The notes under the pieces are model-generated. The model saw nothing but the letters and a program-made list of their open reading frames with translations, was not told the DNA's origin and searched no databases. Position numbers and translations under genes: made by a program. This document shows positions 656 to 35,402 of a DNA stretch of 41,442 nt, one piece after another. The first letter of the stretch is position 1. Every line of letters begins with the position of its first letter. Origin of the DNA: Calothrix sp. MO_167.B42 (lineage in GTDB: Bacteria > Cyanobacteriota > Cyanobacteriia > Cyanobacteriales > Nostocaceae); contig JASJCX010000013.1 in NCBI GenBank assembly GCA_030065255.1, positions 1 to 41,442 of the forward strand. The letters run 5' to 3'.

Positions 656-1516
656 TTGTTGCGAAGGATGCGAGAAATTATCCGCAAAGCAGGAAAATTC
701 AGAAGTTGGTTGCCCGTTAATGAACAATGGTGGGTAAAGTTAGATTTACTTAGAACCTTGGTGCGGCGAGATTTAGAAGCTAGGTATAAGGGTTCAATTT
801 TAGGTAACTTATGGCCCTTGCTCAATCAACTATCACAACTATTGATTTACACTTATGTGTTTTCCATAGTTTTACAGGTCAAGTTGAGCTTGAAAGGCTT
901 ACCTGCTGATAATAATTTGAGTTTTGGTTTATGGCTGTTTGCGGGGTTACTTCCCTGGATTGCCTTTACAGGTGGCCTAATGCAGTCTGCTAATTCCGTA
1001 GTCGGACAACCGAATTTAGTCAAAAAAGTTGTTTTTCCCCTGACTTTATTACCACTGATCCCAATTTTATCAGCTTTCATCGAAAGTGCTTTTGGTTTAA
1101 TGGCGCTGATTTTTCTGGTAGCAATAGTTACTCATACTTTACACCCAACTTTAGCAATTTTACCATTGGTATGGCTACCGCAGTTATTGTTTACGGCTGG
1201 TTTGGGTTATTTAGCGGCAGGATTAACGGTATTCTTGAGGGATATACCCCAAACCCTAGTAGTTATTCTCAATCTTTGGTTTTATCTTACACCACTTGTC
1301 TATCCAGCTAGGGTAATTCCACAACAATGGCGGGCTTTAGTATTTTGGTTCAATCCCATGGCTGCGATTGCGGAAGTTTACCGTGATTTAATCTTAGTAG
1401 GAGAGGTCAACCATTGGGGCGAGTGGGGTATTGCTTCTGTAATATCCATATTATTATTTTGTTTTGGGTTGTGGATATATAGAAAACTACGTCCGGCTTT
1501 TGCCGATGTTCTCTAA
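656..1516 (+). CDS. wzm: Polysaccharide ABC transporter permease (Wzm/TagG type)
   Basis: This is the inner-membrane permease of a type-2 ABC exporter for undecaprenyl-linked glycans. The 286-residue protein has an amphipathic N-terminus, about six hydrophobic segments between residues 50 and 280, and the family-typical stretch 'RRDLEARYKGSILGNLWP' near residues 38-55. The conserved region 'LTPLVYPARVIP' sits near 211-222. The start is uncertain: TTG at 656 lies 8 bases after GAGGA (643-647), whereas the in-frame ATG at 668 has poorer spacing. The ATPase partner follows 137 bases downstream, which fits a Wzm-Wzt pair. The family assignment is firm; the exported polymer is unknown. Confidence 0.9.
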   Translation: MLRRMREIIRKAGKFRSWLPVNEQWWVKLDLLRTLVRRDLEARYKGSILGNLWPLLNQLSQLLIYTYVFSIVLQVKLSLKGLPADNNLSFGLWLFAGLLPWIAFTGGLMQSANSVVGQPNLVKKVVFPLTLLPLIPILSAFIESAFGLMALIFLVAIVTHTLHPTLAILPLVWLPQLLFTAGLGYLAAGLTVFLRDIPQTLVVILNLWFYLTPLVYPARVIPQQWRALVFWFNPMAAIAEVYRDLILVGEVNHWGEWGIASVISILLFCFGLWIYRKLRPAFADVL

Positions 1517-1653
1517 TATTTTCCATCGGATCGATCAATTCAGTTGGCTATGGTTATACGATACAATACTGCAATTATTTACTGATATGGCATCTACGTC
1601 CTGGTATGTGATTATGTGGTGATGTGGGAGTTTTGAGGAGTGATGTTGAAATT

Positions 1654-3054
1654 ATGGGTGAGGATATAACAATTTCTCTGAAAAATGTCTCGAAGTGCTT
1701 TAAGCGGTATGCCCGTCCTGTCGAACGTTTAAAAGAAATTTTACTCCCAGGGAAAAGTAGGGCAGATGAATTTTGGGCACTGCACAATATCAATTTAGAT
1801 ATTTTTAAAGGAGAGACAGTAGGTATTGTCGGACGCAATGGTTCTGGGAAAAGTACACTTCTACAAATTATTGCAGGTACTTTAACCCCCACTACAGGAG
1901 AAGTAAAAGTCAATGGACGTATTTCGGCTTTATTAGAATTAGGCAGCGGATTTAATCCTGAATTTACAGGCAGACAAAATGTCTTTTTTAATGGACGTTT
2001 ATTGGGCTTAACTCAAGGGGAAATTGAGAATAAATTAGATGATATTCTGGGATTTGCAGATATTGGTGAATTTATTGATGAACCTGTTAAAACCTATTCG
2101 AGTGGGATGTTTGTCCGTTTAGCGTTTGCAGTGGCGGTAAATGTTGAACCAGAAATTTTGATTGTAGATGAAGCTTTATCAGTAGGGGATGGAGTTTTTG
2201 TTCACCGTTGCATGGCAAAAATAAAAAGTTTCCAAGATGCTGGTGGAACAATTTTATTTGTATCCCATGATACGGGAACGGTAGCTCGTCTATGCGGCAA
2301 AGTCATATGGATTAATCAAGGGAATATTGTTGAAATCGGCGAACCAGATGTCATTAGTAGGCATTATCAAGCTTGGATGTATGAGCAAATTAATGACTAT
2401 CAAAAAAAATATGCTCAAGAGCAATTAACAGAAAATGAGCAAAATCCTGAGAAAGTAGAAAATGTACCTCAAAATCTGATTAAACAGCAAAAAGAAAGTA
2501 TTAAATCAAATCCTTTTACTGAGAAAAAATATAAATCATATAATAATGTAGAACGTTTTGGAACAGGCAGGGCAGAAATTATAAATATTGAAGTATTAGA
2601 TATTAATAATGCCAATATAGGATTTGTATATCCGAAGGATAAAATTAAATTGGTAATTCAAATCGTCAGTTTTGATCGGATAAAAATGCCTATAGTTGGT
2701 ATTGCTTTATGTGATAGATTAAGAACAACTATAACTTCTCTAAATACAGATCAATATAATTATAAATTAAGTAGTTTATTGCCCCATCAATTATTAACAG
2801 TAGAATTTCAGCTAGATTGGCCTGAGATTCAAGGTGATAACTATGTGTTAGAATGTGCCGTCGCTTGTGGAACCCAGGAGCAGCATGAAATGTTGGATTG
2901 GTTACAATCACCACTGAATATTATGTCAGGGGTAATAGATTTAACATTTGGAATATTTCGTATCCCAAATATTGAAATTTCCCATAGGGTTAAAGCTTAT
3001 GGGCATGATTTAAAAACAAATAGCAAAGTTTTAGAGGGAAATATGAACTATTAG
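1654..3054 (+). CDS. wzt: Polysaccharide ABC transporter ATPase with C-terminal glycan-binding domain (Wzt type)
   Basis: This is the nucleotide-binding subunit of the exporter. Counting from ATG 1654 (466 residues), Walker A 'GRNGSGKST' lies near residue 60, the signature 'YSSGM' near 148, Walker B 'ILIVDEALSVGD' near 168 and the H-loop His near 205. A polar hinge (about 230-295) leads to a beta-rich C-terminal domain of about 150 residues, placed like the Wzt-C domain that in E. coli O8/O9a recognises the modified non-reducing end of the finished chain. The frame is open to a GTG at 1624, but ATG 1654 begins the conserved sequence and follows GAGGAG. Methyltransferase genes immediately downstream would fit export licensed by a methyl cap; that link is inference. 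Confidence 0.92.
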   Translation: MGEDITISLKNVSKCFKRYARPVERLKEILLPGKSRADEFWALHNINLDIFKGETVGIVGRNGSGKSTLLQIIAGTLTPTTGEVKVNGRISALLELGSGFNPEFTGRQNVFFNGRLLGLTQGEIENKLDDILGFADIGEFIDEPVKTYSSGMFVRLAFAVAVNVEPEILIVDEALSVGDGVFVHRCMAKIKSFQDAGGTILFVSHDTGTVARLCGKVIWINQGNIVEIGEPDVISRHYQAWMYEQINDYQKKYAQEQLTENEQNPEKVENVPQNLIKQQKESIKSNPFTEKKYKSYNNVERFGTGRAEIINIEVLDINNANIGFVYPKDKIKLVIQIVSFDRIKMPIVGIALCDRLRTTITSLNTDQYNYKLSSLLPHQLLTVEFQLDWPEIQGDNYVLECAVACGTQEQHEMLDWLQSPLNIMSGVIDLTFGIFRIPNIEISHRVKAYGHDLKTNSKVLEGNMNY

Positions 3055-3129: not shown

Positions 3130-3873
3130 ATGTTAGCAGAAGATATCAAAAGATATGGTCAATGGATGTATGAATTTGACCTTGGTAATGGAGTAAAAAC
3201 CCCTATTTATTCAGAATCCTTGAATCAGGTGAATAAAGTCAGGCATTCAATGATATTCTCCTTTTTGGATGGCATCTCTTTTAATTATAAATCTGCTTCT
3301 ATTTTAGACCTAGCTTGTAATGAAGCATACTTTATGTTTGAGATGTTAAAACGAGGAGCAAAATATGGTCTTGGAGTTGAGGGAAGAAAGGAAAATATAG
3401 AAAAGGCTTTGTTTATTCAGCAGGCTCTTAATTACCCAAATTGTGATTTCCAACATCAAGATGTTTTTGAATTTAACTATGAAAAAGACAAATTTGATAT
3501 CGTACTTTTATTAGGCATTATTTACCATGTAGAAAATCCTATTGGACTGATACGAAAAGCAGCTCTAGCAAGTTCAAAATACCTGTTTGTGGAAACCCAA
3601 CTGTGTAAAAGCGATCGACATATTCCCTTTGGTTGGGGTACTCCTAATGAATATTTACATGGGGAGAGTTACTTTGTAGTTCATACAGAGCAAGAACCAG
3701 AAAACCCACTAGCATCTTTAGCTGGTTTAAGTTTAATCCCAAATTTATTTACTGTGGTTAAAATTCTCAGGCATTTAGGCTTTCAAAGTATTATTCAACT
3801 ACATCCAAATTATCTGGTGCAAGAACCCCAATATAATCAGCTAGATAGAGTCATATTAGTGGGTATCAAGTAA
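3130..3873 (+). CDS. SAM-dependent methyltransferase (class I)
   Basis: This 247-residue Rossmann-fold methyltransferase has motif I 'ILDLACNEAYF' at 58-68, the acidic ribose-binding residue in 'GVEG' (E84) and the post-motif stretch 'FDIVLLLGIIYHVENP' at 122-137. The C-terminal third contains 'FGWGTPNEYLHGE', resembling sugar or lipid methyltransferases of surface-glycan clusters. It follows wzt by 75 bases with a GGAG at 3114-3117. The substrate cannot be read from sequence; methylation of a sugar hydroxyl or of a chain terminus is the contextual guess. Confidence 0.8.
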   Translation: MLAEDIKRYGQWMYEFDLGNGVKTPIYSESLNQVNKVRHSMIFSFLDGISFNYKSASILDLACNEAYFMFEMLKRGAKYGLGVEGRKENIEKALFIQQALNYPNCDFQHQDVFEFNYEKDKFDIVLLLGIIYHVENPIGLIRKAALASSKYLFVETQLCKSDRHIPFGWGTPNEYLHGESYFVVHTEQEPENPLASLAGLSLIPNLFTVVKILRHLGFQSIIQLHPNYLVQEPQYNQLDRVILVGIK

Positions 3874-3899
3874 TATTCATATACTTATTATATTGTATT

Positions 3900-4601
3900 A
3901 TGCCTATATGTGAAGCAATCAATTCCTGCATTTGTTGCGGTTCTAATCGCATAGCACTTAACGCTGTGTTATGGAAATCACTGATAGATGAATGGCGGAT
4001 TTCCCATTATGAAGTTGAATATATTAATCGTCAACAAGGATTGCATTGTCTTGATTGCTCCTCTAATTTACGTTCCATGGCATTAGCAATGGCAATTATG
4101 AGATGTTTTGGCTATCGCGGAATATTTCAGGATTTTATCAAGCAAGAAATTACGCAAAAACTCAAAATTTTAGAAATAAATACAGCAGGTAGCTTAACCC
4201 AATTTTTATCAGAACTACCAGGACATTGTTTGGGAAACTATCCAGAAGTAGACATGATGTCCCTTAAATTTGTAGATGAATCCTTTGATTTAGTAGTTCA
4301 CTCCGATACCCTAGAACATATTCCTTATCCTGTGAGGGGTTTATCTGAGTGTCATAGAGTATTAAAATCTGAAGGCTTATGTGTTTTCACGATTCCGATG
4401 ATTGTTGATAGACTAACTAGCAATCGAGAAGGATTAGCTCCTAGCTATCATGGTGTTTCTGAAGTTCAACAATCTGATTTATTAGTTTATACAGAGTATG
4501 GTTGCGATGCTTGGAAACATACTATTCAAGCTGGATTTCAGGAGTGTAGGATAATTTCCCTAGAATATCCTGCTGCCCAAGCAATTGTTGCAGTCAAATA
4601 A
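3900..4601 (+). CDS. SAM-dependent methyltransferase with N-terminal cysteine pairs
   Basis: The 233-residue protein begins with a possible zinc-binding segment, 'CICC' at 10-13 and 'CLDC' at 50-53, followed by a class I methyltransferase fold. Motif I is degenerate ('ILEINTAGSLT', 90-100), but 'FDLVVHSDTLEHIPYP' (129-144) and 'HRVLKSEGLCVFTIP' are typical. The gene sits 26 bases after the previous methyltransferase and 20 bases before the giant glycosyltransferase, so it is probably co-transcribed. The degraded glycine-rich loop leaves open weak SAM binding or a structural role. The substrate is unknown. Confidence 0.72.
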   Translation: MPICEAINSCICCGSNRIALNAVLWKSLIDEWRISHYEVEYINRQQGLHCLDCSSNLRSMALAMAIMRCFGYRGIFQDFIKQEITQKLKILEINTAGSLTQFLSELPGHCLGNYPEVDMMSLKFVDESFDLVVHSDTLEHIPYPVRGLSECHRVLKSEGLCVFTIPMIVDRLTSNREGLAPSYHGVSEVQQSDLLVYTEYGCDAWKHTIQAGFQECRIISLEYPAAQAIVAVK

Positions 4602-4621
4602 ATTAAAGGAGCTAAAGTTTT

Positions 4622-7600
4622 ATGGAATTCACTGGTGAAAGGTATGTTCCACATTTAAATGGTCAAATTAAATACGAGCATATACATAGATATGCATTGT
4701 GTTTGGAATTTGTGAATGGTAAATCAGTATTAGATATTGCTTCTGGTGAAGGATATGGTTGTGCATTATTAGCAACAGTGGCAGAATCTGTTGTTGGAGT
4801 TGATATTAGTTCTGAAGCCATAGAATCTGCAACCCAGGAATATGGTAGTCTGCCCAATCTCAAGTTTTTGGTGGGTTCATGCGATTCTATACCATTACCG
4901 GACAATTCATTTGATGTAGTCACCTCTTTTGAAACTATTGAGCATCATGATAAACATGAAGAAATGATGCTGGAAATTAAAAGGGTTTTGAAGCCAGATG
5001 GAGTGCTAATTATATCATCTCCAAACCGCTTGATTTATTCAGATGAGCCTAAGTATCAAAACCCATTTCATGTTAAAGAACTTTATTATGACGAATTAGT
5101 TGATTTATTGAATCGGCATTTCAGATTTTCCAAATTTTATGGACAAAAATTAGCTATCAGTTCTTTTCTCTTCTCTTTGACAGAATTAAATGTAAGTGAT
5201 TTTCAATCGTATAGTGGTAGTTCAAATAATGTCAAGAAAATAGTTCCGGCATTAGAGTCTCCCTTATATTTTTTGGTCATATGCTCAGACAATGAACATA
5301 TCCAACAAAATATTGATTCAATTTATATTGATAAAAATGATGACTTATTAAAAAATATTTATGTAGATATAAAAAATTTTCAATCCCAATTAGAACAAAC
5401 TCAAACAGAACTAGAAAAATCACAATCCCAATTAGAACAAACTCAAGCAGAACTAGCAAAATCACAATCCCAATTAGAACAAGCTCAAACAGAACTAGAG
5501 GATTTAAAATATAAATATAAATATTATCTGTATATTTTGAAAAAAATACTCCATAAAACTAAGAATTTTGTGCTCAATGGGATTCGTAAATTACGAAGCA
5601 AAGATAAATTCAAATGGGAAAGAGTTATTAATACTGGAGATATAGAAGGCTATTTAGAATCACCACATATTCAAGAAAATAATGTAGATGGTAAGTTAAT
5701 AGTCTCTGGCTGGGTTTTTAGTAGAAGCTCGAAAATTAAGGATTTAATTTTAATTATAGATGACTTATTAGAAGAAAAAATTGAATATGGCTTGTTTCGC
5801 CCAGATGTATCTGAAGCAAACATAGATGTTGTAGATGCAGGTTTATCTGGATTTACAAAAACTATTCTATTTGACACTAATTACTCTGGTAAAATCAACA
5901 TTAGAATTTGGTCAGTTTTGGAAAATGGAACACGAATTTGTTGTTTTGCTAGACAGGTAAAATTTAAGGCTAAGAAACCAAAGAAAACTATTAGAATCGA
6001 TTTCTTGATTTTTCTACGCAGTGCATTATTTAAAGCTTTTGATGCTTTTAAACAAGGTAGATTGCCACTTTCTCCATATTTGTGGTTTTATTATCTCCGT
6101 CGGCATTACAGAAAAATTAAGGGAATCCAAAATTCAGCTATAGAGTATTCTAATATTATTCATCCTTGGCAAACTGAAAATTTATATCAACGTTGGATAC
6201 GCACAAATTTTCCCACACCAAAGCTTTTGGCGCGGATGGAAGCAGATGCAGAAAAATTAGAACCAACGGGAGTCAAAATAAGTATTGTAGTTCCTGTTTA
6301 TAACACTCCCGAAATTTTTCTCAAAGAAATGATTGATTCAGTGAGAACACAAATTTATGCCAATTGGGAATTGTGTATTGCTGATGATTGCTCTACAAAA
6401 CCTGGTGTTCAAGAAATATTAAAACAGGTAACGGCAGAGGACTCACGCATCAAAGTTATTTTTAGACAAAATAATGGTCATATTGTAGAAGCAACTAATT
6501 CAGCATTGTCAATTGCGACGGGTGAATATGTGGCATTACTAGATCATGATGATACCTTGTCCGTGGATGCACTGTTACATATTGCTGAATGCGTCAACAA
6601 GCATCCCGATGTGGATTGGATATATACAGATGAGGATAAAATTAACCAATCTGGATATCATTTCGATCCACAAATGAAGGGTGCCTGGAGTCCAGAAATG
6701 GCTATTACTCACAACTTTACCCACCATCTTACCGTGATTCGTAAAGCATTGATTGCAGAAGTCGGAGGGATGCGAAAAGGGTTTGAGGGAGCGCAGGATC
6801 TTGATTTATTTTTGCGTGTAAGCGAAAAGACAACACCAGATAAAATTAAGCATATTCCCCATGTGTGTTACCACTGGCGAACCCACACAGGAAGTACAGC
6901 TTCCCACGGAACTCAAAAGCAGTATGTATTTGATAGTGCTCATCATGCTATTGAAGATGCAATTCAACGTAGAGGTTTAAAAGCTAAACCATTTTTGCCC
7001 AAAATTGCCAAAAAGCATGGCTTGTGTTTGTACCAACTAAAGTGGGATGATTCTTTATTAGCGCATAATTCTGTGACAATTGTTATCCCTACCAGGGACA
7101 GAACTGACTTACTAAAAAAGTGCGTATCTAGTCTGGAAAAAACTGTAGACAAACGTTTTGTCAAATTGATTATAGTAGATGATAATTCTCAAGAACCAGC
7201 TACTCATCAGTATCTGCATAAATTGCAAGCAGATCAAGTCTTAAAATGCCAAGTTATCCATGCAGAACGAAAAATAGATACTTTTAATTATGCCCGTTTA
7301 ATGAATTTGGCTGCTGAACATGTTGAGACACCATATATGCTACACCTCAACAACGATGTGCAAGCCATAGAACCAGGTTGGTTAGAAGATATGGTTGGCT
7401 GGATGTCAATCAATGGTGTAGGAGTAGTAGGAGCTAAACTTTTATATCCGAATGGAAATATTCAACATGCTGGTGCGGTAGTAGGGCCTCATAATGGATT
7501 AGCGGACCATTTATTTCATGGTTTACATAAAGATGAAGTCGGTTATATTTGCCTGCCCCATGCAGCACGAAACGTTTCGGCAGTAACAGGAGCTTGTCTA

Positions 7601-9103
7601 CTGACTTCAACAAGTTTGTATAGAGAAATTGGAGGATTTGACGAAGATAAATTCACAGTTGAGTACAACGATGTAGATTATTGTCTACGAGTAATTCAAT
7701 CTGGAAAACGTATCGTCTATACACCTCAAGTAATTCTAGTACATGAGACTAGTGCTTCTAGGGGTCAGCATTTTAATCCTCAAGAGCATATTAATTTTCT
7801 GGATAAATATAAATTTTTTACTGATAGTTATTTTAGCAAAAGTTTAGATATTAATTCTATGGAAATGGCGGTTAATCCCTATCATTTCTGTCATGTGGAT
7901 AGAGTATCTCATCCTAAAATACTATTCATTACTCACAATTTAAATTTGGAAGGAGCGCCACTGATTGTTTACAATTATGCCCGTTATTTTGCAACGAAAG
8001 GTGATTGTAAAATTTACGTAATTTCTCCCATCGATGGTGTTTTGCGACAAGAATATGAACAGTTAAATATTCCTGTAAAAATTATAGAAAAAACTTTGCC
8101 TCTACCAGAAGAAAATATAGATAAATATCGCAGTCGTTTGCAACAAATAGGAGAGAGCTTAAATCTAGATTCCTTTGATTTAGTTGTATGTAATACATTA
8201 CTCAGCTTCTGGGGTGTTGAATTGGCTAAACTTTTCAAATTACCCACTATTTGGCATATTCATGAAAGCCAAAATATTAATATGAGCATCAATAGTTTCT
8301 TTGGTTCTGCACCAGAAAATGTGATGCAATATATATTGCCAGATTGTTTAGCAACATCCAATAGAGTAGTTTTTCAAGCTGATGCTACACGCAGAATTTT
8401 TCATCAATATGATATTCAAGGTAATTTCCGTACTATACCCGGTGGACTCAATTTACAGCGAATCAAGCAATTCCGAGACGAGCATAACAAATCAGACTTA
8501 CGGAATAAATATGATATAAATCCCAATCATACAGTAGTTTCTATTATTGGCACTACCTGTCAGCGTAAAGGACAACATATTTTTATAGATGCGATTAAAG
8601 AATTAGCAGCAATTTTCCCTAACAAGTTTGCCAATATATCTTTTCTCATAGTCGGTGCTAGAAATAAAACCTATTTAGAGCAAAGTTACTTAGAATTATT
8701 AAACCGTAAAATTAAAAACTTCTCATTAAATAATATCTATATATATCCTGAAACAAAAGATGTTTATGACTTCTATGCTTTGAGTGATATTTTCGTTTGT
8801 GCCAGTTTTGAAGAATCTTTCCCGAGAGTATTACTAGAAGCAATGGCTTTTGAACTTAAAATTATTAGTACTGATGTATTTGGCATTCCCGAAATAGTGA
8901 ATGATAGAAGTGAAGCATATTTAGTACAACCAGGAGATGCCAAAGCCCTAGCAATTGCTATGAAAAAATGCATCGCAGACCCCAATTTATCATCTTGTCT
9001 AGCTCAAAATTCCTATGCAAAATTTTGCCGGATGTTTGATAATCAACATCTTTTACACCAACATCTGTTACTGGCAAAGGAAGTGATTTTACAAAGGGAT
9101 TAA
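4622..9103 (+). CDS. Giant fusion: methyltransferase - coiled coil - beta-sandwich - GT2 - GT2 - GT4
   Basis: A 1493-residue multifunctional glycan-assembly protein. Residues 1-170 are a class I methyltransferase (motif I 'VLDIASGEGYG' near 36-46, acidic D61, 'PDNSFDVVTSFETIEH'). Residues 254-295 are a coiled coil made of three 14-residue repeats. Residues 345-448 form a beta-sandwich-like module ('VSGWVF', 'GLFRPDV', 'GLSGF'). Residues 553-780 are a GT2 domain ('IVVPVYN', 'DDCS', DHDD at 641-644). Residues 817-1060 are a second GT2 domain ('IVIPTRDR', 'DDNS', NNDV at 910-913, 'GGFDED'). Residues 1099-1480 are a GT4 domain ('GTTCQRKGQH' and the E-x7-E motif 'EESFPRVLLE' near 1397-1406). No signal peptide or membrane span is seen. 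A sequential sugar-adding and methyl-capping enzyme is the likely role. An AAAGGAG-like ribosome site at about 4605-4611 precedes ATG 4622. Confidence 0.9.
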   Translation: MEFTGERYVPHLNGQIKYEHIHRYALCLEFVNGKSVLDIASGEGYGCALLATVAESVVGVDISSEAIESATQEYGSLPNLKFLVGSCDSIPLPDNSFDVVTSFETIEHHDKHEEMMLEIKRVLKPDGVLIISSPNRLIYSDEPKYQNPFHVKELYYDELVDLLNRHFRFSKFYGQKLAISSFLFSLTELNVSDFQSYSGSSNNVKKIVPALESPLYFLVICSDNEHIQQNIDSIYIDKNDDLLKNIYVDIKNFQSQLEQTQTELEKSQSQLEQTQAELAKSQSQLEQAQTELEDLKYKYKYYLYILKKILHKTKNFVLNGIRKLRSKDKFKWERVINTGDIEGYLESPHIQENNVDGKLIVSGWVFSRSSKIKDLILIIDDLLEEKIEYGLFRPDVSEANIDVVDAGLSGFTKTILFDTNYSGKINIRIWSVLENGTRICCFARQVKFKAKKPKKTIRIDFLIFLRSALFKAFDAFKQGRLPLSPYLWFYYLRRHYRKIKGIQNSAIEYSNIIHPWQTENLYQRWIRTNFPTPKLLARMEADAEKLEPTGVKISIVVPVYNTPEIFLKEMIDSVRTQIYANWELCIADDCSTKPGVQEILKQVTAEDSRIKVIFRQNNGHIVEATNSALSIATGEYVALLDHDDTLSVDALLHIAECVNKHPDVDWIYTDEDKINQSGYHFDPQMKGAWSPEMAITHNFTHHLTVIRKALIAEVGGMRKGFEGAQDLDLFLRVSEKTTPDKIKHIPHVCYHWRTHTGSTASHGTQKQYVFDSAHHAIEDAIQRRGLKAKPFLPKIAKKHGLCLYQLKWDDSLLAHNSVTIVIPTRDRTDLLKKCVSSLEKTVDKRFVKLIIVDDNSQEPATHQYLHKLQADQVLKCQVIHAERKIDTFNYARLMNLAAEHVETPYMLHLNNDVQAIEPGWLEDMVGWMSINGVGVVGAKLLYPNGNIQHAGAVVGPHNGLADHLFHGLHKDEVGYICLPHAARNVSAVTGACLLTSTSLYREIGGFDEDKFTVEYNDVDYCLRVIQSGKRIVYTPQVILVHETSASRGQHFNPQEHINFLDKYKFFTDSYFSKSLDINSMEMAVNPYHFCHVDRVSHPKILFITHNLNLEGAPLIVYNYARYFATKGDCKIYVISPIDGVLRQEYEQLNIPVKIIEKTLPLPEENIDKYRSRLQQIGESLNLDSFDLVVCNTLLSFWGVELAKLFKLPTIWHIHESQNINMSINSFFGSAPENVMQYILPDCLATSNRVVFQADATRRIFHQYDIQGNFRTIPGGLNLQRIKQFRDEHNKSDLRNKYDINPNHTVVSIIGTTCQRKGQHIFIDAIKELAAIFPNKFANISFLIVGARNKTYLEQSYLELLNRKIKNFSLNNIYIYPETKDVYDFYALSDIFVCASFEESFPRVLLEAMAFELKIISTDVFGIPEIVNDRSEAYLVQPGDAKALAIAMKKCIADPNLSSCLAQNSYAKFCRMFDNQHLLHQHLLLAKEVILQRD
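5381..5506 (+). repeat. 42-bp tandem repeat (3 units) encoding a coiled coil
   Basis: Three nearly identical 42-bp units start at 5381, 5423 and 5465, each beginning CAATCCCAATTAGAACAA. They encode 14-residue (two-heptad) units of the form QSQLEQTQTELEKS. The third unit diverges in its last bases. Because 42 is divisible by 3 and fits the heptad register, gain or loss of units would lengthen or shorten the coil without a frameshift. Confidence 0.9.
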
Positions 9104-9157
9104 AAAATGTTCAGATTTTATACAAGCATATAAAAATAATATCATCCATAATTTGTC

Positions 9158-10912
9158 ATGCTAAAAAACAATTTTGTATTGTATAAAAAACGATTATTTT
9201 TGTTTTTTATTTATTTTATCCCAGTTATATTAGTATTATGGTATGTTGCCAAATTTAGTGTGAATGTACCCTTCTGGGATGAATGGGCATTGGTTCATTT
9301 CTTTGAAAAATTTGCAGCCGGAAATGTAAATTTTTCTGACTTTTTTGCACAGCATAATGAACATCGTATCTTCTTCCCCAGGATATTTTTCTTAATAATT
9401 GGCTTTTCCTCCAAATGGGATACAAGGCTAGAAATGTACTTTAGCATTTTCCTAACTATAGTATCTTTCTGGATAATATACACTATTTCAAGTAATAGCC
9501 AAACTCGAGACAAAATATTTCATGTAATTAATATTGCTACATGTTTTCTAATATTTTCTTTAGCCCAGCATGAAAATTGGTTATGGGGATTTCAAATAAC
9601 TTGGTTTCTCATCAATACCTGCGTCATCATAGCAATATTTTTTCTAGTTATACCGAAAAAAATAAAAATCCATCAGAGAATAATTATTTCGGCTATATGC
9701 TGTTTTGTTGCTAGTTTCTCTTCAGCCCAGGGTCTCCTGTCTTGGATAGCTCTCATCCCCACGATAGCTTTTGTTGAAGGCAGTGAAAGACAGAAAAAAG
9801 GTAGAGTCATACTATGGATAATACTTTTTTTATTATCCGTTGCTATATATCAAATAGGGTACGCTAAACTAAGTTATCATCCTGATATATTCTTCTTTGT
9901 AAAAGAGCCATTAATAGCAATTAATTATCTATTAACTATTTTAGCAATGCCAATTGCTAGGCAGTTATTTCCTATTTGGATAATTGGCTTATTTCTATTA
10001 TTAAACTGGTTATTTGTTAATATATATTGCCTGAAAAACTACCAATCAAAATTTACTCATGATGCAGCTCCCTGGTTGTCGTTAGGTTGGTTTGCAGTTC
10101 TATTCGCTTTAATGACTACTGTAGGTAGATCTGGTTTCGGTGTTGAGCAGGCTATGTCATCTAGATACACATCTATTTCATTATTATTAATTGTTTCTTT
10201 GTTACAAATATGGCGGCTACTTATTTATCACGAACATTTTTTCGTAGTAAAAAAAAGATATATTAATTCAGCTTATATCTTTCTTGTTGGTATTTTAACA
10301 ACTATTTTTATTGCTAACTCAGTTGATATGATTCATATGGGGAAGGCAGATTGGTTACGGAAGACTACGGGTAAATCTTGCCTAGAAGTAATCCACTTCA
10401 TAGATACTAAATCCATTGCTGCACAACCGAATAACTGCTTACAGTCGCTTCAACCTGATCCAGTTAACCTCAAAAAAGAAGCTGAAATGCTTCAAAGGTT
10501 AGGTTTCAGAGAGTTTCCTAAAGATATAACTTTTACAACTCAACCGAAGAAAAATTACGGCTATATTGATATTCCTCCCACAACTGATAATGCCTTAATG
10601 TTACAGAGAAGTGGGAACATAAAGCTTTTTGGCTGGGCTATCTTACCAAATAGTCGGGAACAACCAAAAATAGTATTTCTGTCTTATGGTGATAGACAAT
10701 TATTTTTTGCAAATGCTGTAGTAGAATTAGGCAGATCTGATATAGAAAAGAGCTTGAACTCAAGTCTTTATAAAAACTCAGGCTGGAAAGTCGAACTTTC
10801 ACTAAAATCCTTACCGTTGGGGGAAACTGTAATTAAGGCTTGGGTTTATGACCCAGATAACAAACAGTTTGTCAAGTTAAATGGCGAACCAAAAATTAAA
10901 GTAGTGGAGTGA
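9158..10912 (+). CDS. Multi-spanning membrane protein with C-terminal beta-sandwich module (GT-C-like candidate)
   Basis: 584 residues. Residues 15-390 carry about ten hydrophobic segments. The first large loop has 'NVPFWDEW' (D41, E42) and 'QHNEHR' (65-70), an acidic and charged pattern resembling the first outer loop of GT-C lipid-linked glycosyltransferases. A conserved-looking 'SRYTS' motif lies near 335-339. After the last helix, residues 483-583 form a soluble module ('LFGWAIL', 'GRSDIEKSL', 'NSGWKVEL', 'KAWVYDP') that also ends the next protein. I do not recognise a named family; a GT-C-type transferase is inference from topology and motifs. The gene lies 54 bases after the giant glycosyltransferase and 53 before its partner. 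Confidence 0.78.
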   Translation: MLKNNFVLYKKRLFLFFIYFIPVILVLWYVAKFSVNVPFWDEWALVHFFEKFAAGNVNFSDFFAQHNEHRIFFPRIFFLIIGFSSKWDTRLEMYFSIFLTIVSFWIIYTISSNSQTRDKIFHVINIATCFLIFSLAQHENWLWGFQITWFLINTCVIIAIFFLVIPKKIKIHQRIIISAICCFVASFSSAQGLLSWIALIPTIAFVEGSERQKKGRVILWIILFLLSVAIYQIGYAKLSYHPDIFFFVKEPLIAINYLLTILAMPIARQLFPIWIIGLFLLLNWLFVNIYCLKNYQSKFTHDAAPWLSLGWFAVLFALMTTVGRSGFGVEQAMSSRYTSISLLLIVSLLQIWRLLIYHEHFFVVKKRYINSAYIFLVGILTTIFIANSVDMIHMGKADWLRKTTGKSCLEVIHFIDTKSIAAQPNNCLQSLQPDPVNLKKEAEMLQRLGFREFPKDITFTTQPKKNYGYIDIPPTTDNALMLQRSGNIKLFGWAILPNSREQPKIVFLSYGDRQLFFANAVVELGRSDIEKSLNSSLYKNSGWKVELSLKSLPLGETVIKAWVYDPDNKQFVKLNGEPKIKVVE

Positions 10913-10965: not shown

Positions 10966-13536
10966 ATGGCAACTCTAAAAAAAACTTTGGCTCCCCTTCA
11001 ACTATATCTACCAAATATACTCTGGATACTTGCAGTCATATATTGTTCCTTTGCATTTATTCCCATCCCTGGAGGTGTAAAGATAGGGCTAGATCCATCT
11101 TGGCAATATGCAATTAGTCAAGCAGCAGCAGAAAAACTTATTTTTGGGCGAGACATTATATTCACCTATGGTTCATTTGGATACCTTATTCATGGTTCTG
11201 TAGTGGAGCATAATTTTTGGGCAATAACTATTTTTCGTTTGTTCATACACTTTGGGTTATTTGCTGTTATCTTGGTGAGAATATTAGCCCTAAAATCTAA
11301 TATTCTGAGATTATCTTTAGCCTTGAGTGTTCTATTTTCTTATTGGAGAGTATTGAGTTTTTCTGCTGATTATCAGATACTGTTTATTTTTTTAATCATT
11401 TTATCCTTCAAAAGTATATGGCATCCAAAATCAATCAGATGGTGGTCTTTAGGTCTTGGTGCAATCTCAGGATTTTGTATATTGACTAAATTGAATTTAG
11501 GTATTTGTACATTTGGTTCACTGACTTTAATTTTATTAGTTTATCTTTATACTGCTATTAGAACAAAGTCAAATATAACTATTAGATGTATATCCATAGT
11601 AGAAGCAATATTAGTAGCAACTTCTGTAGCTTTTGTACTTTTGCACCCCAATTATATTTATAGTAATTTAACTAAAATATTTATATGTATTCTGGCTTCT
11701 CTCACTATTTCATTCATTTTTAATTTAATTTATAATTTACTTATCTCTGGGAAACTTCAAGAAAAAAACAAAGTAAAACTTAATTTGCCTATTAGCAGTA
11801 TTTCCTTTTACTTATGTTACAGTCTTGGACTGTTTATCCTAATTCATTATTCAGTACCTTCATTAACAGCATATTTAAAAAGCTCCTGGGAGATATCATC
11901 TGGTTATTCTAGTGCAATGAGCATTGTAGGTCCTATATCAGATTTAATATTGGGAGTTTCTCAAGTAATTTTAATATTAATAATTTTATTTTTTGTAGCC
12001 AGAGAAGGAAGTTTTGGCTTTTCTCTAGGTGTAGCACTCGTCTTAGCCATATCTTTCAAACACGGATTTATACGTCAAGGCGGGCATAGTTTGTTCTTGT
12101 TTATTACTACGCCAATTATAGTTACACTATGTATTGCTAAAGTTACAAAAAAAAATAGTAAAATATTTTCATTCTTTATTCATTTTTATACATTACTAGT
12201 ACTATTGTTTGTATATCAACCATATCAACCAATCAATACAGCATCATTAAGAAATTTAGCTCCTGTAAAAATTATTGATAATGTGTCAACTATTTTCAAT
12301 TTAAGTCAGTTAGAAAAACAAATACATACATCTAGCAAGACTAACTTATCTGGAGCTAAACTACCTGAAAAAATTGTGAAAATTATAAAAGATAAACCAA
12401 TCGATATTGTTCCTTGGGAAATTTCACTTGTAGCAGCCAACAATCTCAACTGGAAGCCAAGACCAATATTTCAATCCTATTCAGCTTATACAAGTTTTCT
12501 TGATCAGACTAATTCAAAAAGCTTGTTAAAGAATCCTAGAGATTACATTATTTACCAATTTACTTCCATTGACCGTAGACATCCTTTTTTTGATGAGCCA
12601 GAAACATTTTTTCATATATATTGTAACTATAAATTATCTTCTGAAATACCAGATTTTGTAAATACAGAGAAAATTTATAATTTGATGCTTTTAGACCAGC
12701 GTCAATCAAATATATGTTCACCGAGTGTTGTAGGTAAGCAATTTTCAAGTTCTTGGAATAAGAATCAATCCTTAGAAGCAAAGGATGGATTAATGGTTCG
12801 TGCCGCAGTGAAAATAGAGTATTCCACTTTCGGTAAAATTTATAAAACTCTCTTCAGAAGCCCACCTGTAAAGATGCAAGTTACTTATGTAAATAATCAA
12901 GTAAAATCATACAGAATCATTCCGGAAAATTCAAATAATGGTGTAATAATCAGTCATCTGCCAAAAGACAATTATGAAGCTTTAAGTTTTTTCAAAGGCA
13001 ATTTGCCTGTGCGGATTAAATCTTTCAGATTCTCGAACAAGAATCCTATTTTATACAAACCAAATATTAAAATCAAGTTAACCTCATATAATCTATTAGA
13101 TAAGTCCATAAAACAAGATTCATGGATTGATATATCAAAGTTAACAGATATCCGTTTCCTCGATACAAAAATGGATACTGATGGCCTTATAGATACTCAA
13201 AATAAAAATGCAGAGAAAGCTAAAAGATTGAAAAGAGGAAAGAAAATTTCTGTATCTGGATGGGCTATTAACAAGAATAAAAAGGGAGAAATAATCTGGA
13301 TACTTTTAACATCTGGTTCTAACAATAAACCTCTATTACTTGGCAAAACAGGTGGACGCAGATCGGATATTGCTAAAGTTTTCAAGAATAGCAAATATAC
13401 TAATTCAGGCTGGTCTATAGACTTTAGTTCTCAGGACATGCCTAAAGGTGTTCACAATATAAGAGCTTGGATTTACGAACCAACTGGTAAATTGGCGATA
13501 CCAATTAGTGGAAACTACCGTGTAGATATACACTAG
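10966..13536 (+). CDS. Large membrane protein with the same C-terminal beta-sandwich module
   Basis: 856 residues with roughly ten to twelve hydrophobic segments between residues 15 and 420, then a soluble region of about 430 residues. An early loop carries 'LDPSWQYAISQAAAEKL' and 'FGRDIIFTYGSFGYL', a pattern seen in large uncharacterised bacterial membrane proteins of polysaccharide loci. Residues about 755-856 repeat the module of the previous protein ('VSGWAIN', 'GRRSDIAKVF', 'NSGWSIDF', 'RAWIYEP'). The coding sequence is very AT-rich. The function is unknown. Tandem arrangement with the 584-residue protein suggests they act together, perhaps in transfer of a lipid-linked sugar or in export. 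Confidence 0.75.
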   Translation: MATLKKTLAPLQLYLPNILWILAVIYCSFAFIPIPGGVKIGLDPSWQYAISQAAAEKLIFGRDIIFTYGSFGYLIHGSVVEHNFWAITIFRLFIHFGLFAVILVRILALKSNILRLSLALSVLFSYWRVLSFSADYQILFIFLIILSFKSIWHPKSIRWWSLGLGAISGFCILTKLNLGICTFGSLTLILLVYLYTAIRTKSNITIRCISIVEAILVATSVAFVLLHPNYIYSNLTKIFICILASLTISFIFNLIYNLLISGKLQEKNKVKLNLPISSISFYLCYSLGLFILIHYSVPSLTAYLKSSWEISSGYSSAMSIVGPISDLILGVSQVILILIILFFVAREGSFGFSLGVALVLAISFKHGFIRQGGHSLFLFITTPIIVTLCIAKVTKKNSKIFSFFIHFYTLLVLLFVYQPYQPINTASLRNLAPVKIIDNVSTIFNLSQLEKQIHTSSKTNLSGAKLPEKIVKIIKDKPIDIVPWEISLVAANNLNWKPRPIFQSYSAYTSFLDQTNSKSLLKNPRDYIIYQFTSIDRRHPFFDEPETFFHIYCNYKLSSEIPDFVNTEKIYNLMLLDQRQSNICSPSVVGKQFSSSWNKNQSLEAKDGLMVRAAVKIEYSTFGKIYKTLFRSPPVKMQVTYVNNQVKSYRIIPENSNNGVIISHLPKDNYEALSFFKGNLPVRIKSFRFSNKNPILYKPNIKIKLTSYNLLDKSIKQDSWIDISKLTDIRFLDTKMDTDGLIDTQNKNAEKAKRLKRGKKISVSGWAINKNKKGEIIWILLTSGSNNKPLLLGKTGGRRSDIAKVFKNSKYTNSGWSIDFSSQDMPKGVHNIRAWIYEPTGKLAIPISGNYRVDIH

Positions 13537-21484: not shown

Positions 21485-23266
21485 ATGAATATTTTAAAAT
21501 TAACAAACAACATCTATAATGACGTATTACCTCAAATCTCAGGCAATAATATTGTCTGGTTTGGTGATGATGGCAATGACGGGGAAATTTTCCTCTACGA
21601 TGGCAGCCAAACTCGCCAATTAACAAACAACATCTATGATGATGGTTTTCCTCAAATTTCAGGCAATAAGGTTGTCTGGTATGGTGATGATGGTAATGAC
21701 ACGGAAATTTTCCTTTACGATGGCAGCCAAACTCGCCAATTAACAAACAACATCTATGATGATGGTTTTCCTGAAATCTCAGGCAATAACGTTGTCTGGT
21801 TGGGTTATGATGGCAATGACTATGAAATTTTCCTCCACGATGGCAGCCAAACTCGCCAATTAACAAACAACATCTATGATGATGTGCTTCCTCAAGTCTC
21901 GGGGGATAATGTTGTTTGGTTTGGTTCTGACGGCAATGACTATGAAATTTTCCTCTACGATGGCAGCCAAACTCGCCAACTCACAAACAACAACTATGAT
22001 GATTTGCTTCCTGAAATCTCAGGCAATAACGTTGTTTGGTATGGTTTTGACGGCAATGACACGGAAATTTTCCTCTACGATGGCAGCCAAACTCGCCAAC
22101 TCACAAGCAACAACTATAATGATGAGTATCCTCAAATCTCAGGGGATAATGTTGTCTGGTTTGGTTCTGATGGCAATGACACGGAAATTTTCCTCTACGA
22201 TGGCAGCCAGACTCGTAAACTAACAAACAACAACTATAATGATGAGTATCCTCAAATCTCAGGGGATAATGTTGCCTGGTTTGGTTCTGACGGCAATGAC
22301 TATGAAATTTTCACAACAAATTTATCATCAATAGATGCCGAGTCCACAGATATCGATTTAACAGATGCCGATTTCAACAATGACGGCCATACAGATATTT
22401 TATGGCGCAACTCTCGCACTGGTGAGAATGCCATCTGGTTGATGGATGGAACTAACGTCTCAGAGGGTGTGTCCATCACAACTGTATCAGACACTGATTG
22501 GCACGTTAAAGGAACTGCCGATTTCAATCATGACGGTCATACAGATATTTTATGGCGCAACTCTCGCACTGGTGAGAATGCCATCTGGTTGATGGATGAA
22601 ACTAACGTCTCAGAGGGTGTGTTCATCACAAGTGTATCAGACACTGATTGGCACATTAAAGGAACTACTGACTTCAATAATGATGGTCAGACAGATATTT
22701 TATGGCGCAACTCTCGCACTGGTGATAATGCCGTCTGGCTAATGGATGGAACTAACGTCTCAGAGGGTGTGTTTATCACAAATGTATCAGACGCTGATTG
22801 GCACATCAAAGGCACTGCTGATTTCAATCATGATGGTCAGGAAGATATTTTATGGCGTAATTCTCGCACTGGTGAGAATGCCATCTGGCTGATGGATGGA
22901 ACTAATATCTCAGAGGCTGTGTATCTACCAGAGGTGGGTGATGCTGATTGGCACATCAAAGGAGTTGCTGATTTCAACAATGATGGTCAGGAAGATATTT
23001 TATGGCGCAACTCTCGCACTGGTGATGATGCCATTTGGCTGATGGACGGAACTCATATGTTACATGGTGCGTTCATAACAGGTGTATCGGACACTGATTG
23101 GCACATCAAAGGCACTGCTGATTTCAACAATGACGGTCATGGGGATATTTTATGGCGACACTCTGGTAGCGGTGACAATGCTATCTGGCTGATGGATGGA
23201 ACTAACATGTTAGATGGTATGTTCATCACAGGTGTACCAGACACTGATTGGTCTTCCATGGTTTAG
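21485..23266 (+). CDS. Tandem-repeat protein: seven TolB-like blades plus six FG-GAP/VCBS-like repeats
   Basis: 593 residues made almost entirely of repeats. Residues 6-276 are seven copies of a 40-residue unit with the consensus 'ISGNNVVWFG.DGND.EIFLYDG', probably one seven-bladed beta-propeller. Residues 295-593 are six copies of a 50-residue unit with Ca-binding loops of the DxNxDGxxD type ('DFNNDGHTDILWRN', 'NAIWLMDGTN', 'SDTDWH.KGTADF'). The FG-GAP/VCBS family usually acts outside the cell in adhesion, but no signal peptide is seen at ATG 21485, so a non-classical exit or a missing N-terminus must be considered. AAGGGGG at 21474-21480 could be the ribosome site. No partner gene is evident. 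Confidence 0.85.
   Translation: MNILKLTNNIYNDVLPQISGNNIVWFGDDGNDGEIFLYDGSQTRQLTNNIYDDGFPQISGNKVVWYGDDGNDTEIFLYDGSQTRQLTNNIYDDGFPEISGNNVVWLGYDGNDYEIFLHDGSQTRQLTNNIYDDVLPQVSGDNVVWFGSDGNDYEIFLYDGSQTRQLTNNNYDDLLPEISGNNVVWYGFDGNDTEIFLYDGSQTRQLTSNNYNDEYPQISGDNVVWFGSDGNDTEIFLYDGSQTRKLTNNNYNDEYPQISGDNVAWFGSDGNDYEIFTTNLSSIDAESTDIDLTDADFNNDGHTDILWRNSRTGENAIWLMDGTNVSEGVSITTVSDTDWHVKGTADFNHDGHTDILWRNSRTGENAIWLMDETNVSEGVFITSVSDTDWHIKGTTDFNNDGQTDILWRNSRTGDNAVWLMDGTNVSEGVFITNVSDADWHIKGTADFNHDGQEDILWRNSRTGENAIWLMDGTNISEAVYLPEVGDADWHIKGVADFNNDGQEDILWRNSRTGDDAIWLMDGTHMLHGAFITGVSDTDWHIKGTADFNNDGHGDILWRHSGSGDNAIWLMDGTNMLDGMFITGVPDTDWSSMV
21500..22313 (+). repeat. 120-bp tandem repeat, seven units
   Basis: Units begin every 120 bases (21500, 21620, 21740 and so on to 22220), each starting with TTAACAAACAAC or a close variant. 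The phrase TGGCAGCCAAACTCGCCAA recurs in almost unchanged form. High DNA identity, not just protein similarity, indicates recent duplication or gene conversion. Confidence 0.92.
22367..23266 (+). repeat. 150-bp tandem repeat, six units
   Basis: Units start at 22367 and repeat every 150 bases to the stop codon, exactly six periods. ATATTTTATGGCGCAACTC and GATGGATGGAACTAA recur with few changes; the last unit is the most divergent. Each unit encodes one 50-residue Ca-loop repeat. Confidence 0.92.
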
Positions 23267-26279: not shown

Positions 26280-26514
26280 AATAGTTGTTAGTTGGGAGTT
26301 GATAGTTGTTAGTTATGAGCGCCCGACTAGCAGCTATCGCCACTAGCAACAAATGAAACTAACACATTTGATTAAAGCTCAAATCCTTAGTGCATAAGGG
26401 TTTTAAAATGTGTTAGTTAGAAGTAAGTGTGGGGAGTATGGGAAGTGTGGGAAGCAATATTATTTCTTTCACTCACTCCCTCTCAACTGTCAACTGTCAA
26501 CTGTCAACTCTTCC
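26280..26514. terminator. Bidirectional terminator-like hairpin between convergent genes
   Basis: Between convergent rfbA and pyk, ACTAACACATTT (26358-26369) and AAATGTGTTAGT (26406-26417) form a perfect 12-bp stem with an inner CCTTA/TAAGG hairpin near 26385-26399. A symmetrical stem flanked by AT-rich bases suits termination in both directions. The rest of the gap holds GTTAGTT-like simple repeats and the TCAACTG repeat. Confidence 0.55.
26483..26508. repeat. Heptamer short tandem repeat (TCAACTG)
   Basis: Just under four direct copies of TCAACTG end 6 bases before the pyk stop codon (pyk is on the minus strand). It is of the class of short tandemly repeated repetitive sequences typical of heterocystous cyanobacteria. 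Confidence 0.85.
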
Positions 26515-33563: not shown

Positions 33564-33591
33564 TAACTGATAACTGATAACTGATAACTGA
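33564..33591. repeat. Heptamer tandem repeat (TAACTGA), four copies
   Basis: Four perfect TAACTGA units lie immediately before ATG 33593, where a ribosome site would be expected. Short tandem repeats of this type are frequent in Nostocales intergenic DNA. Confidence 0.9.
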
Positions 33592-34155: not shown

Positions 34156-35355
34156 ATGAACACCGAGGAATATAAAACTCCACAATCAGATGATGAGTCT
34201 TCGATGCAACCAGAATCACAACAGCCTACACCTGAATCACCAGAACAAGAAACTCATCCATCCGTCGATGTGATAGCAACATCATCTGTGGTAAATTCCA
34301 TCGTTGATACCACAGATGATGAATCACAAGAAGTAACAAATAATATATTAGAAGTAGAAGAACAGCCATCCCCATCAGAGTTAGAACAAAAAATTGTCCA
34401 ACTACAGCAACAAGAACAAGACTTAAAAACAGAAATAGCTCAATTGCAAACTGCCAGCAAAACTCTACAAGGGCAGTTATATCAGTCCCAAATTGCCATG
34501 GGAAAGATGACACAAGAGGCTCTTTCCCAGTTAGAGGAACGCAAACAAGCTCTGCAAATTTCCGTAGAGCAATTAGAAAGGCGACAAGAACGGATTCGCA
34601 ATGAGATGAAAACTTCCTTTGCGGGAGTTTCCCAAGACTTAGCAATTCGCGTCCAGGGTTTTAAAGACTACTTGACCGGTAGTTTACAGGATTTAGCCGT
34701 CGCCGCCGAGCAGTTACAATTAGCACCTCCACCCAGGCCAGAACCAGAAAAAATGAGAATGAAGGTGGTGCAATCCCAGGAATCATCAGCAGAAATAATA
34801 CAATTTGCTCCGGCAAAGTTTGAGGAAACAACCAAGAAAATTCGTTATCTAATTGACCAATACCGGACTAAACCAGATTATTATGGCCCACCTTGGCAAT
34901 TAAGACGCACCTTTGAACCAGTCCACGCCGAACGTGTTGCCAACTGGTTTTTCCAACAAGGGGGAAGGGGTGGTTTGCGTAGTATGGGTAGTAGGTTGCA
35001 AAATACACTAATTGCCTCAGCAATTATATCTATACTGTACCAAATGTATGGTAATCGCCTCCGCCCCCTAGTGATAGCAAACAGCCCAGAAAGCTTGGGT
35101 GATTGGCGCAGGGGATTGCAGGATTGTTTGGGAATCGGCCGTTCAGATTTTGGTCCAGATAGGGGGGTAGCATTATTTGAAAGGCCAGAGGCGGTGGCAC
35201 AAAAAGCTGAACGACTGCAAAAAGCCAAGCAAATGCCCTTTATTATTATTGATGATTCGGAAGAGCAAATTAGTTTGTCCCTACTGCAATTTCCTTTGTG
35301 GTTAGCTTTTGCTCCCGATCCCAGGATGGCGAGGAGTTATGATGATGATTTTTGA
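34156..35355 (+). CDS. DUF3086 family protein with coiled coil
   Basis: 399 residues from ATG 34156 (TTG 34150 is also in frame). The first 75 residues are acidic and low-complexity, rich in Gln, Pro and Ser. Residues about 78-150 form a coiled coil ('LEQKIVQLQQQEQDLKTEI' and 'ALQISVEQLERRQERIRNEM'). Residues 220-399 are a compact domain ('YRTKPDYYGPPWQLRRTFEP', 'ANWFFQQGGRGGLRSMGSRL', 'QFPLWLAFAPDP') that I recognise as cyanobacterial DUF3086, function unknown. The neighbourhood with plsY and mlaE hints at an envelope or lipid role. The stop codon overlaps the start of a heptamer repeat. Confidence 0.85.
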   Translation: MNTEEYKTPQSDDESSMQPESQQPTPESPEQETHPSVDVIATSSVVNSIVDTTDDESQEVTNNILEVEEQPSPSELEQKIVQLQQQEQDLKTEIAQLQTASKTLQGQLYQSQIAMGKMTQEALSQLEERKQALQISVEQLERRQERIRNEMKTSFAGVSQDLAIRVQGFKDYLTGSLQDLAVAAEQLQLAPPPRPEPEKMRMKVVQSQESSAEIIQFAPAKFEETTKKIRYLIDQYRTKPDYYGPPWQLRRTFEPVHAERVANWFFQQGGRGGLRSMGSRLQNTLIASAIISILYQMYGNRLRPLVIANSPESLGDWRRGLQDCLGIGRSDFGPDRGVALFERPEAVAQKAERLQKAKQMPFIIIDDSEEQISLSLLQFPLWLAFAPDPRMARSYDDDF

Positions 35356-35402
35356 TGGTTGACGGTTGATGGTTGACGGTTGATGGTTGAGGGTTGACGG
35401 TT
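35354..35402. repeat. Heptamer tandem repeat (GAYGGTT), seven copies
   Basis: GATGGTT and GACGGTT alternate for seven units (one GAGGGTT), starting in the stop codon of the DUF3086 gene. The same unit recurs at the end of plsY (36543-36566). Confidence 0.92.

Follow-up and report, generated by a model that had tools for sequence, protein, structure and literature searches.

Chain terminators of ABC transporter-dependent glycan export provide the closest described parallels to the locus considered here. WbdD, the terminator of the Escherichia coli O8/O9a and Klebsiella pneumoniae O3/O5 systems, carries an N-terminal methyltransferase with a coil after it. According to three reports, this coil acts as a ruler and is followed by a membrane-associated amphipathic helix, and the ABC transporter of the corresponding systems has a module for reading the terminal group (PMC3482155; PMC11231755; PMC5082667). 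One of these accounts describes the coil as about 20 nm (PMC5082667). In K. pneumoniae O7, ORF6 combines an N-terminal methyltransferase, a coil and C-terminal polymerase glycosyltransferase (GT) modules in one polypeptide, again with ABC export, and a 223-residue kinase domain and an Ig-like CBM precede its coil (PMC11231755). The same report notes cyanobacterial orthologs of O7-type terminators, of which some carry C-terminal GT modules and others stop after the coil; the terminator-GT architecture is therefore not new (PMC11231755). O12 WbbB of K. pneumoniae, as portrayed there, unites a terminator transferase with polymerase GTs in one protein (PMC11231755) and ends chains with a beta-Kdo residue. 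In another instance, the stand-alone "MT" protein of E. coli O101/O162 consists of a methyltransferase and then a C-terminal coil; in the available portion of that article a ruler role is likewise a suggestion, and tandem DNA repeats are unmentioned (PMC13168486). For cyanobacteria, an export survey states that O-antigen assembly has been suggested to follow mainly the ABC-transporter pathway (PMC4594306).

The window, a 41,442-nucleotide stretch of Calothrix sp. MO_167.B42 (contig JASJCX010000013.1), shares with WbdD-type systems wzm and a wzt carrying Wzt_C, and it encodes a 1493-residue protein in which, as in WbdD and O7 ORF6, a coil follows an N-terminal methyltransferase. This protein is without a kinase, whereas O9a WbdD has one and the O8 homologue is called methyltransferase-only (PMC3482155). 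Its polymerase is fused rather than recruited as by WbdD, and a coil of near-identical 42-bp repeats is a further difference from WbdD. Unlike O7 ORF6, it has neither a kinase domain nor an Ig-like CBM before the coil, which begins some 15 residues beyond the methyltransferase, and it possesses three GT domains including a GT4; in other respects the two layouts run parallel. WbbB differs in its terminal Kdo, where the window has a methyltransferase, and resembles the GT2-capped relatives L133, L146 and L152 described below. Among the open-licence papers listed, none was found that deals with sulfo- or pyruvyltransferase-coil-polymerase fusions or with tandem repeats that vary in such coils. 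The architecture is known; repeat-number variation and exchangeable caps look new.

Anatomy of the fused gene

The first-pass annotation had placed a methyltransferase, a repeat-built coiled coil and three GT domains in a single protein, encoded three genes after a Wzt with a C-terminal domain. Pfam and AlphaFold2 support this anatomy, in the order methyltransferase, helix, GT2-GT2-GT4, and two methyltransferase-type genes do lie between wzt and the fused gene (Table 1). Within the first domain, Pfam assigns Methyltransf_11 to residues 37-131. A kinase hidden in the protein was considered and ruled out: the methyltransferase ends near residue 225 and the helix starts at 241, so that no segment is left for a kinase domain before the coil, and the 25 of 44 Pfam families listed include no kinase family. 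WbdD is absent among the structural matches listed for the window model and among the 60 of 109 PDB sequence matches listed. The window Wzt scores 71.3 bits against PF14524 (curated cut-off, 30.4), and a sequence search with its C-terminal domain against solved structures returned no match at E≤10.

Table 1. Coordinates of the wzm-wzt cluster and of the parts of the fused gene in the window.
Feature	Position	Strand	Basis
wzm, ABC-2 permease of glycan exporter	656..1516	+	PF01061, 75.2 bits; conserved near wzt in relatives
wzt, ABC ATPase with C-terminal domain	1624..3054	+	PF00005, PF14524
Wzt_C domain, wzt residues 309-433, candidate cap-reading domain	2548..2922	+	PF14524, E 1.1e-19; similarity follows cap enzyme in relatives
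Methyltransferase-type gene "MT2"	3130..3873	+	PF13847; close relatives in same place in L041, L068
Methyltransferase-type gene "MT3", frequent partner directly before coil gene	3900..4601	+	PF08241
Fused candidate terminator-coil-polymerase gene, 1493 aa	4622..9103	+	ORF, Pfam, AlphaFold2
Class I SAM methyltransferase domain, residues 1-225, candidate chain-capping enzyme	4622..5296	+	
Predicted unbroken helix, residues 241-327, coil plus basic end	5342..5602	+	AlphaFold2
42-bp unit 1, reads QSQLEQTQTELEKS	5381..5422	+	TRF, unit comparison
42-bp unit 2, reads QSQLEQTQAELAKS	5423..5464	+	TRF, unit comparison
42-bp unit 3, reads QSQLEQAQTELEDL, last codons diverged	5465..5506	+	TRF, unit comparison
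Basic amphipathic stretch, residues 308-325, possible counterpart of relatives' SKFWKLRxxWFKxK end motif, candidate membrane-contact helix	5543..5596	+	
GWVF domain, residues about 340-450, between coil and polymerase	5639..5971	+	Sequence; similar stretch in fused relatives; low-confidence model
GT2 domain 1, polymerase module, Glycos_transf_2, residues 554-713	6281..6760	+	PF00535
GT2 domain 2, polymerase module, second GT2-type domain, residues 816-1046	7067..7759	+	PF13641
GT4-type domain, polymerase module, Glycos_transf_1, residues 1290-1465	8489..9016	+	PF00534

The repeat array is recognized by TRF at 5381-5499 as 2.8 copies of period 42 with 93% matches and a score of 217. Each 42-bp unit corresponds to two heptads, and the units share 40 (1 and 2), 37 (1 and 3) and 35 (2 and 3) of 42 bases. 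When the ORF is matched to itself at a lag of 42, the best segment reaches 77 of 84 columns, against a maximum of 46 in 2,000 codon shuffles. AlphaFold2 predicts one helix through this segment in the single chain, with 10-residue mean pLDDT values of 72-89 across the repeats (residues 254-295), 62 at the helix start and 57 at its end; the prediction is thus compatible with the earlier description of the segment as a coiled coil.

No Pfam family among those listed covers the GWVF domain. Two large membrane-type proteins without a significant Pfam match, encoded at 9158-10912 and 10966-13536 of the window, both end in a GWA...R.D...SGW domain that appears GWVF-like by eye, and relatives of either protein are found again next to the fused genes L146, L148, L150 and L151.

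Relatives, gene linkage and repeat number

Searches with the N-terminal part found matches in 24 of 193 Nostocaceae genomes at E≤1e-20 and, across the order, in 19 of 388 at E≤1e-60; the methyltransferase alone was found in 15 of 218 Nostocaceae genomes at E≤1e-60, and further searches added 6 of 53 genomes of one Nostoc-type genus and 15 loci in named genomes. For some genomes in the two Nostocaceae searches, one match per locus is listed. The locus counts rest on 27 distinct loci, window included, and leave out ten weaker family matches (E 2.5e-30 to 1e-21; contexts seen for L054 and L055). In 21 of the 27, wzt lies upstream of the methyltransferase-coil gene on the same strand, either directly or with MT2/MT3 between, and MT3 is the immediate upstream neighbor in 15, including the window. 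The available stretch contains no wzt in the other six (L070-L075), of which L070 and L071 carry the longest heptad ladders. Outside the cyanobacteria, wzt precedes the gene in 6 of 10 loci (Lysobacter and five Bacteroidota); three of the remaining four have little upstream sequence.

Among 27 upstream Wzt proteins scanned, 23 match PF14524 at E≤0.001. The C-terminal parts of L076, L077, L078 and L039 miss this threshold, those of L079, L034 and L038 fall below the curated cut-off, and all seven adjoin members with little or no coil. Four cyanobacterial relatives (L076-L079) have short spacers of 46-54 residues, and the five Bacteroidota relatives adjoining wzt have no coil; the coil is therefore dispensable in some members. 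In L072 and L073, the methyltransferase is joined directly to a GWVL-type domain, with no coil and no wzt in the stretch; in L073, TPR-like repeats, recognized by eye, come before that domain.

In many relatives, the methyltransferase-coil protein stands alone and ends in METSKFWKLRxxWFKFK or a similar sequence, and a pattern search detected a basic, aromatic-rich end motif after the coil in 19 of the 27 loci. The window protein has no canonical end motif. Its residues 308-325 carry a net charge of +6 with a moment of 0.52 and a score of 2.47; in the background, no score exceeds 1.49 among 105 methyltransferase stretches or 2.15 among 30 from the GT part. At the DNA level, the motif pattern matched eight times in six genomes, five times in the methyltransferase-coil gene and never in G000; of the other matches, L085 is an unrelated short ORF, and L086 and L087 yielded no motif-bearing ORF of more than 100 residues under the expression used.

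Spacer length varies far more than the enzyme that precedes it. The methyltransferase core measures 215-221 residues, whereas the stretch from it to the end motif measures 46-244 in the 19 loci where that motif is recognizable, a set that excludes the window and seven others. At a rise of 0.15 nm per helical residue, these spacers would span about 7 to 37 nm. A constant repeat number in all relatives, which the first-pass annotation had named as evidence against its proposal, was not what we found: the number of units varies, and three close pairs differ by whole 14-residue units. For example, Desmonostoc geniculatum (L044) and Nostoc calcicola (L045) encode identical 225-residue methyltransferases, with six synonymous differences in 675 nt, and their spacers differ by 14 residues, exactly one unit. 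The spacer of L046 differs from those of L047 and L048 by 28 residues, L042 and L043 differ by 14 and L047 and L048 by 0, and L070 and L071 are 28 residues apart in total length. In the repeat-poor L050-L052, differences of 9, 12 and 21 residues are not multiples of 14.

Comparison of the units themselves gives a mixed picture. The L044 units are more alike within their array (0.978) than to the best L045 units (0.955), while the flanking methyltransferase DNA is 99.1% identical, and the L042/L043 units behave similarly (0.893 within, 0.798 across). The order is reversed for L046/L047 (0.876 within, 0.933 across), and the values are about equal for L070/L071 (0.914 and 0.917). Turnover of whole units is seen in some close pairs and not in all, and the changes in unit number lie between species rather than within one strain. 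Short-read assemblies may collapse repeats, and the L029 array contains a 10-N gap. In the long ortholog L028, the predicted structure comprises helices at 242-416, 427-464 and 466-482, with confidence of about 46-63 before and in the break.

Two further ideas about the coil were set aside. Conservation of heptad phase across the whole spacer was dropped, since spacer lengths fall into mod-7 classes 5, 3, 2 and 1 in 8, 3, 3 and 1 of 15 measured. A generic cyanobacterial repeat was not borne out when the L045 coil served as query in eight genomes: among the 31 places listed, 7 matched at 52% identity or more and the other 24 at 14-41%. At most 150 candidates were scored in six of the eight genomes. 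Five of the seven are the methyltransferase-coil gene, one per genome; of the other two, G187 contributes a GT2-coil-GT fusion and G095 a GT2-coil gene from its own cluster. L109 and L112, the two weaker places examined, are signalling-type proteins with another coil.

A sulfotransferase-type relative, L195 (fused gene 3206-8431, minus strand), contains a near-perfect coil repeat of 28 residues, or four heptads; repeat-built coils therefore occur with different units. In L074, a methyltransferase ORF and a second-frame ORF bearing 11 coil-like units overlap (8815-9642 and 9591-10523, minus strand), so that a frame change, whether genuine or introduced by assembly, seems to break up the coil.

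N-terminal enzymes, polymerases and Wzt C-terminal domains

In 210 Nostocaceae genomes, 12 proteins matched the polymerase part (residues 331-1493) at E≤1e-150, and all 12 were examined. Six of them are 70-73% identical to the window polymerase module and five 36-40%. Seven kinds of N-terminal domain occur among the 12 fused proteins, in every case connected through a coil: a sulfotransferase, a pyruvyltransferase, GT2, GT4-like and three types of methyltransferase. Six of the seven kinds are already present within the 70-73% group plus the window (seven proteins). The window-type methyltransferase is the partner in the window and L029, Methyltransf_23 in L148 and L154, and an MT3-like methyltransferase in L153; GT2 occurs in L146, L152 and L133, a GT4-like domain at or just under the Pfam cut-off in L149 and L151, a sulfotransferase in L147 and a polysaccharide pyruvyltransferase in L150. 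The window-type polymerase of L029 (Nostoc sp. S13) lies beyond the 10-N assembly gap inside the coil, and the fusion is therefore presumed. Seen from the other end, the methyltransferase-coil protein continues into other enzymes in the window, L041 and L046. In L153 (3311-8062, minus strand), a gene of the MT3 type, which in other loci is a separate neighbor, is itself fused to coil and polymerase.

A wzt-type gene lies upstream of all 12 on the same strand within about 2.7 kb, in L153 only as a C-terminal part at the contig end, and wzm was seen near 11 of 12. The neighboring Wzt has PF14524 in nine; in L147, L148 and L150 it has none and consists of an ATPase of about 245 residues. By reading, aminotransferase-like and hexapeptide acyltransferase-like genes were recognized between wzt and the fused gene in L146 and L152, and hexapeptide-repeat and acyltransferase-like genes in L133, as expected if the N-terminal GT2 were to add an unusual acylated or amino sugar.

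Beyond the family, an order-wide search listed 150 of 388 genomes at E≤1e-120, many matching in the GT2 part only. Sixteen of these were picked by hand and examined, so the share of sulfotransferases among them is not a frequency. Seven are sulfotransferase-coil-polymerase fusions near wzm-wzt; Sulfotransfer_3 was found in all five scanned (L190, L192, L194, L195 and L197), and L193 and L196 were assigned by similarity. L191 is cut by the contig end, and the remaining eight (L182-L189) have a separate polymerase gene. A coil gene lies directly upstream of it in L182-L185, ending in an SKFWKLR-like motif in L182 and L185, the two whose ends were examined. In L186 and L187, the upstream neighbor is methyltransferase/sulfotransferase-like; L188 and L189 have no wzt in the stretch, and the genes examined before the L188 polymerase are unrelated. 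The occurrence of the same pair in fused and split forms is as expected of proteins working as one complex. The L053 cluster contains an additional gene for a GT2-coil protein.

Similarity between Wzt C-terminal domains (Wzt-C) follows similarity between the N-terminal enzymes. Over the nine fused proteins with Wzt_C, the correlation is 0.76, a value reached by 8 of 10,000 permutations, and with the seven sulfotransferase cases added, whose Wzt C-terminal parts enter without a Pfam scan, it is 0.94 (n=16; 0 of 10,000). Against the polymerase, the corresponding values are -0.23 (n=9; 8,991 of 10,000) and 0.19 (n=16; 450 of 10,000). Similarity of the Wzt NBD likewise correlates with that of the cap (r 0.85 for n=9, 0.91 for n=16), so that physical linkage is a serious alternative and can explain part of this co-tracking; the partial correlation of Wzt-C with the cap given the NBD is 0.33 (n=9) and 0.68 (n=16). 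At the level of sequence, Wzt-C thus appears to follow the N-terminal enzyme and not the polymerase, and linkage may contribute.

Individual pairs illustrate the pattern. L149 and L151 share 72% identity in the cap, 76% in Wzt-C and 46% in the polymerase, and L146 and L152 share 71%, 62% and 46%, respectively. Conversely, L029 and L146 have polymerases 93% identical with Wzt-C at 29% over 131 columns, a low-scoring alignment. L152 and L133 retain 90% identity in the NBD, 93% in the polymerase core and 92% in Wzm but only 28% in Wzt-C and 37% in the cap; in this one pair, therefore, the exchanged piece begins inside wzt. L153 is an exception in that its cap is MT3-like, yet its Wzt-C is 66% identical to that of the window. 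MT3, or both methyltransferases, may therefore make the feature read by Wzt-C.

Possible function and further features of the window

We regard it as probable that the window protein is a single-chain terminator-spacer-polymerase for a Wzm-Wzt-exported glycan, similar to WbdD and the Klebsiella O7/O12 proteins but without a kinase. Judging from its domains and from Wzm-Wzt, the GT2-GT2-GT4 part would extend a lipid-linked chain at the membrane, where the basic helix after the coil probably holds the polymerase part. The predicted helical rod, perhaps in an oligomer, would keep the N-terminal methyltransferase away from the polymerase modules, at the far end. By analogy, the N-terminal enzyme probably caps the growing sugar chain: when the chain has grown far enough to arrive at the methyltransferase, its free end would be modified and growth would stop, and the C-terminal domain of Wzt, as the co-tracking suggests, would read the modified end for export. 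On this model, coil length would set polymer length in the window system. Because the rod is built from in-frame 42-bp repeats of two heptads each, gain or loss of a unit would alter its length while keeping reading frame and heptad register, and chain length may be tunable in this way.

The likeness to WbdD drawn in the first-pass annotation survives in part. It is strengthened by the wzm-wzt linkage, the varying repeat number with three close pairs that differ by whole 14-residue units, the end motif in 19 of 27 loci and the coils joining several candidate capping enzymes to related polymerases; the missing kinase, the five coil-less Bacteroidota, the four short-spacer cyanobacteria and the 3 of 12 Wzt proteins without Wzt_C do not fit it. 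In an alternative that we consider unlikely, the N-terminal enzymes would act as decorating enzymes on internal sugars, and the coil would be only a tether or oligomerization stalk that keeps them near polymerase and membrane, its length being neutral and drifting by slippage. Coil-less relatives beside wzt, the extra GT2-coil gene in the L053 cluster, a length range of 46-244 residues without obvious constraint and arrays that in two of four pairs look homogenized, like any tandem repeat, are all compatible with such a stalk. However, Wzt-C tracks the N-terminal enzyme, which terminal caps would predict more readily than internal decoration would, and the same layout in WbdD is a ruler (PMC5082667; PMC11231755). 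Coiled coils are moreover generally less variable in length than other regions (PMC5082667), so that free drift would be unusual.

Neutral recombination alone is a somewhat doubtful explanation of the pairing. It would treat wzm-wzt-cap as one block and the repetitive coil as a hot spot joining this block to any polymerase, which accords with the NBD also tracking the cap and with a junction that falls in the repetitive coil. The exchange between L152 and L133 begins inside wzt, which in this one pair speaks against a single block, and every N-terminal domain that was identified is a group or sugar transferase that could plausibly serve as a cap; recombination may be the route while function keeps the pairs together. 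We find it highly improbable that the protein is an ordinary multidomain glycosyltransferase with a low-complexity linker whose repeats are incidental and roleless. The window does have three units only, and helical Q/E/L-rich linkers are frequent, but heptad register is kept in the window units, the gene is syntenic with wzt, and the seven best of the 31 listed places for the L045 coil are this gene (five) or glycosyltransferase-coil proteins (two).

A wider proposal, which we consider less likely than not, can be put forward. Cyanobacteria might possess a plug-in system in which a cap enzyme (methyl-, sulfo-, pyruvyl- or glycosyltransferase), sometimes with donor-making genes, and the matching Wzt-C are swapped over a constant polymerase, with the tandem-repeat ruler as the joint; its unit number would change on short time scales and give heritable glycan-length steps of 14 residues, or about 2 nm. 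In the literature surveyed, ruler control of polysaccharide length so far rests on few enterobacterial proteins. Related methyltransferases with spacers of 46-244 residues and an ortholog pair one repeat apart form a natural graded series, so the ruler model can be tested by comparing existing strains. The exchangeable N-terminal enzymes, sulfo- and pyruvyltransferases included, predict chain-end chemistries undescribed for this pathway in the literature surveyed, and if the matching of Wzt-C and cap is true, genome sequence would predict what a Wzt-C domain reads.

Tandem repeats also occur elsewhere in the window. A 593-residue ORF at 21485-23266 is made up for the most part of two repeats, one of 120 bp (about 6.8 copies) and one of 150 bp (5.9 copies). 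Heptamer tandem repeats, which are common in filamentous cyanobacteria, are found in perfect or near-perfect form at 26483-26509, 33564-33591, 35352-35405 and 41390-41416.
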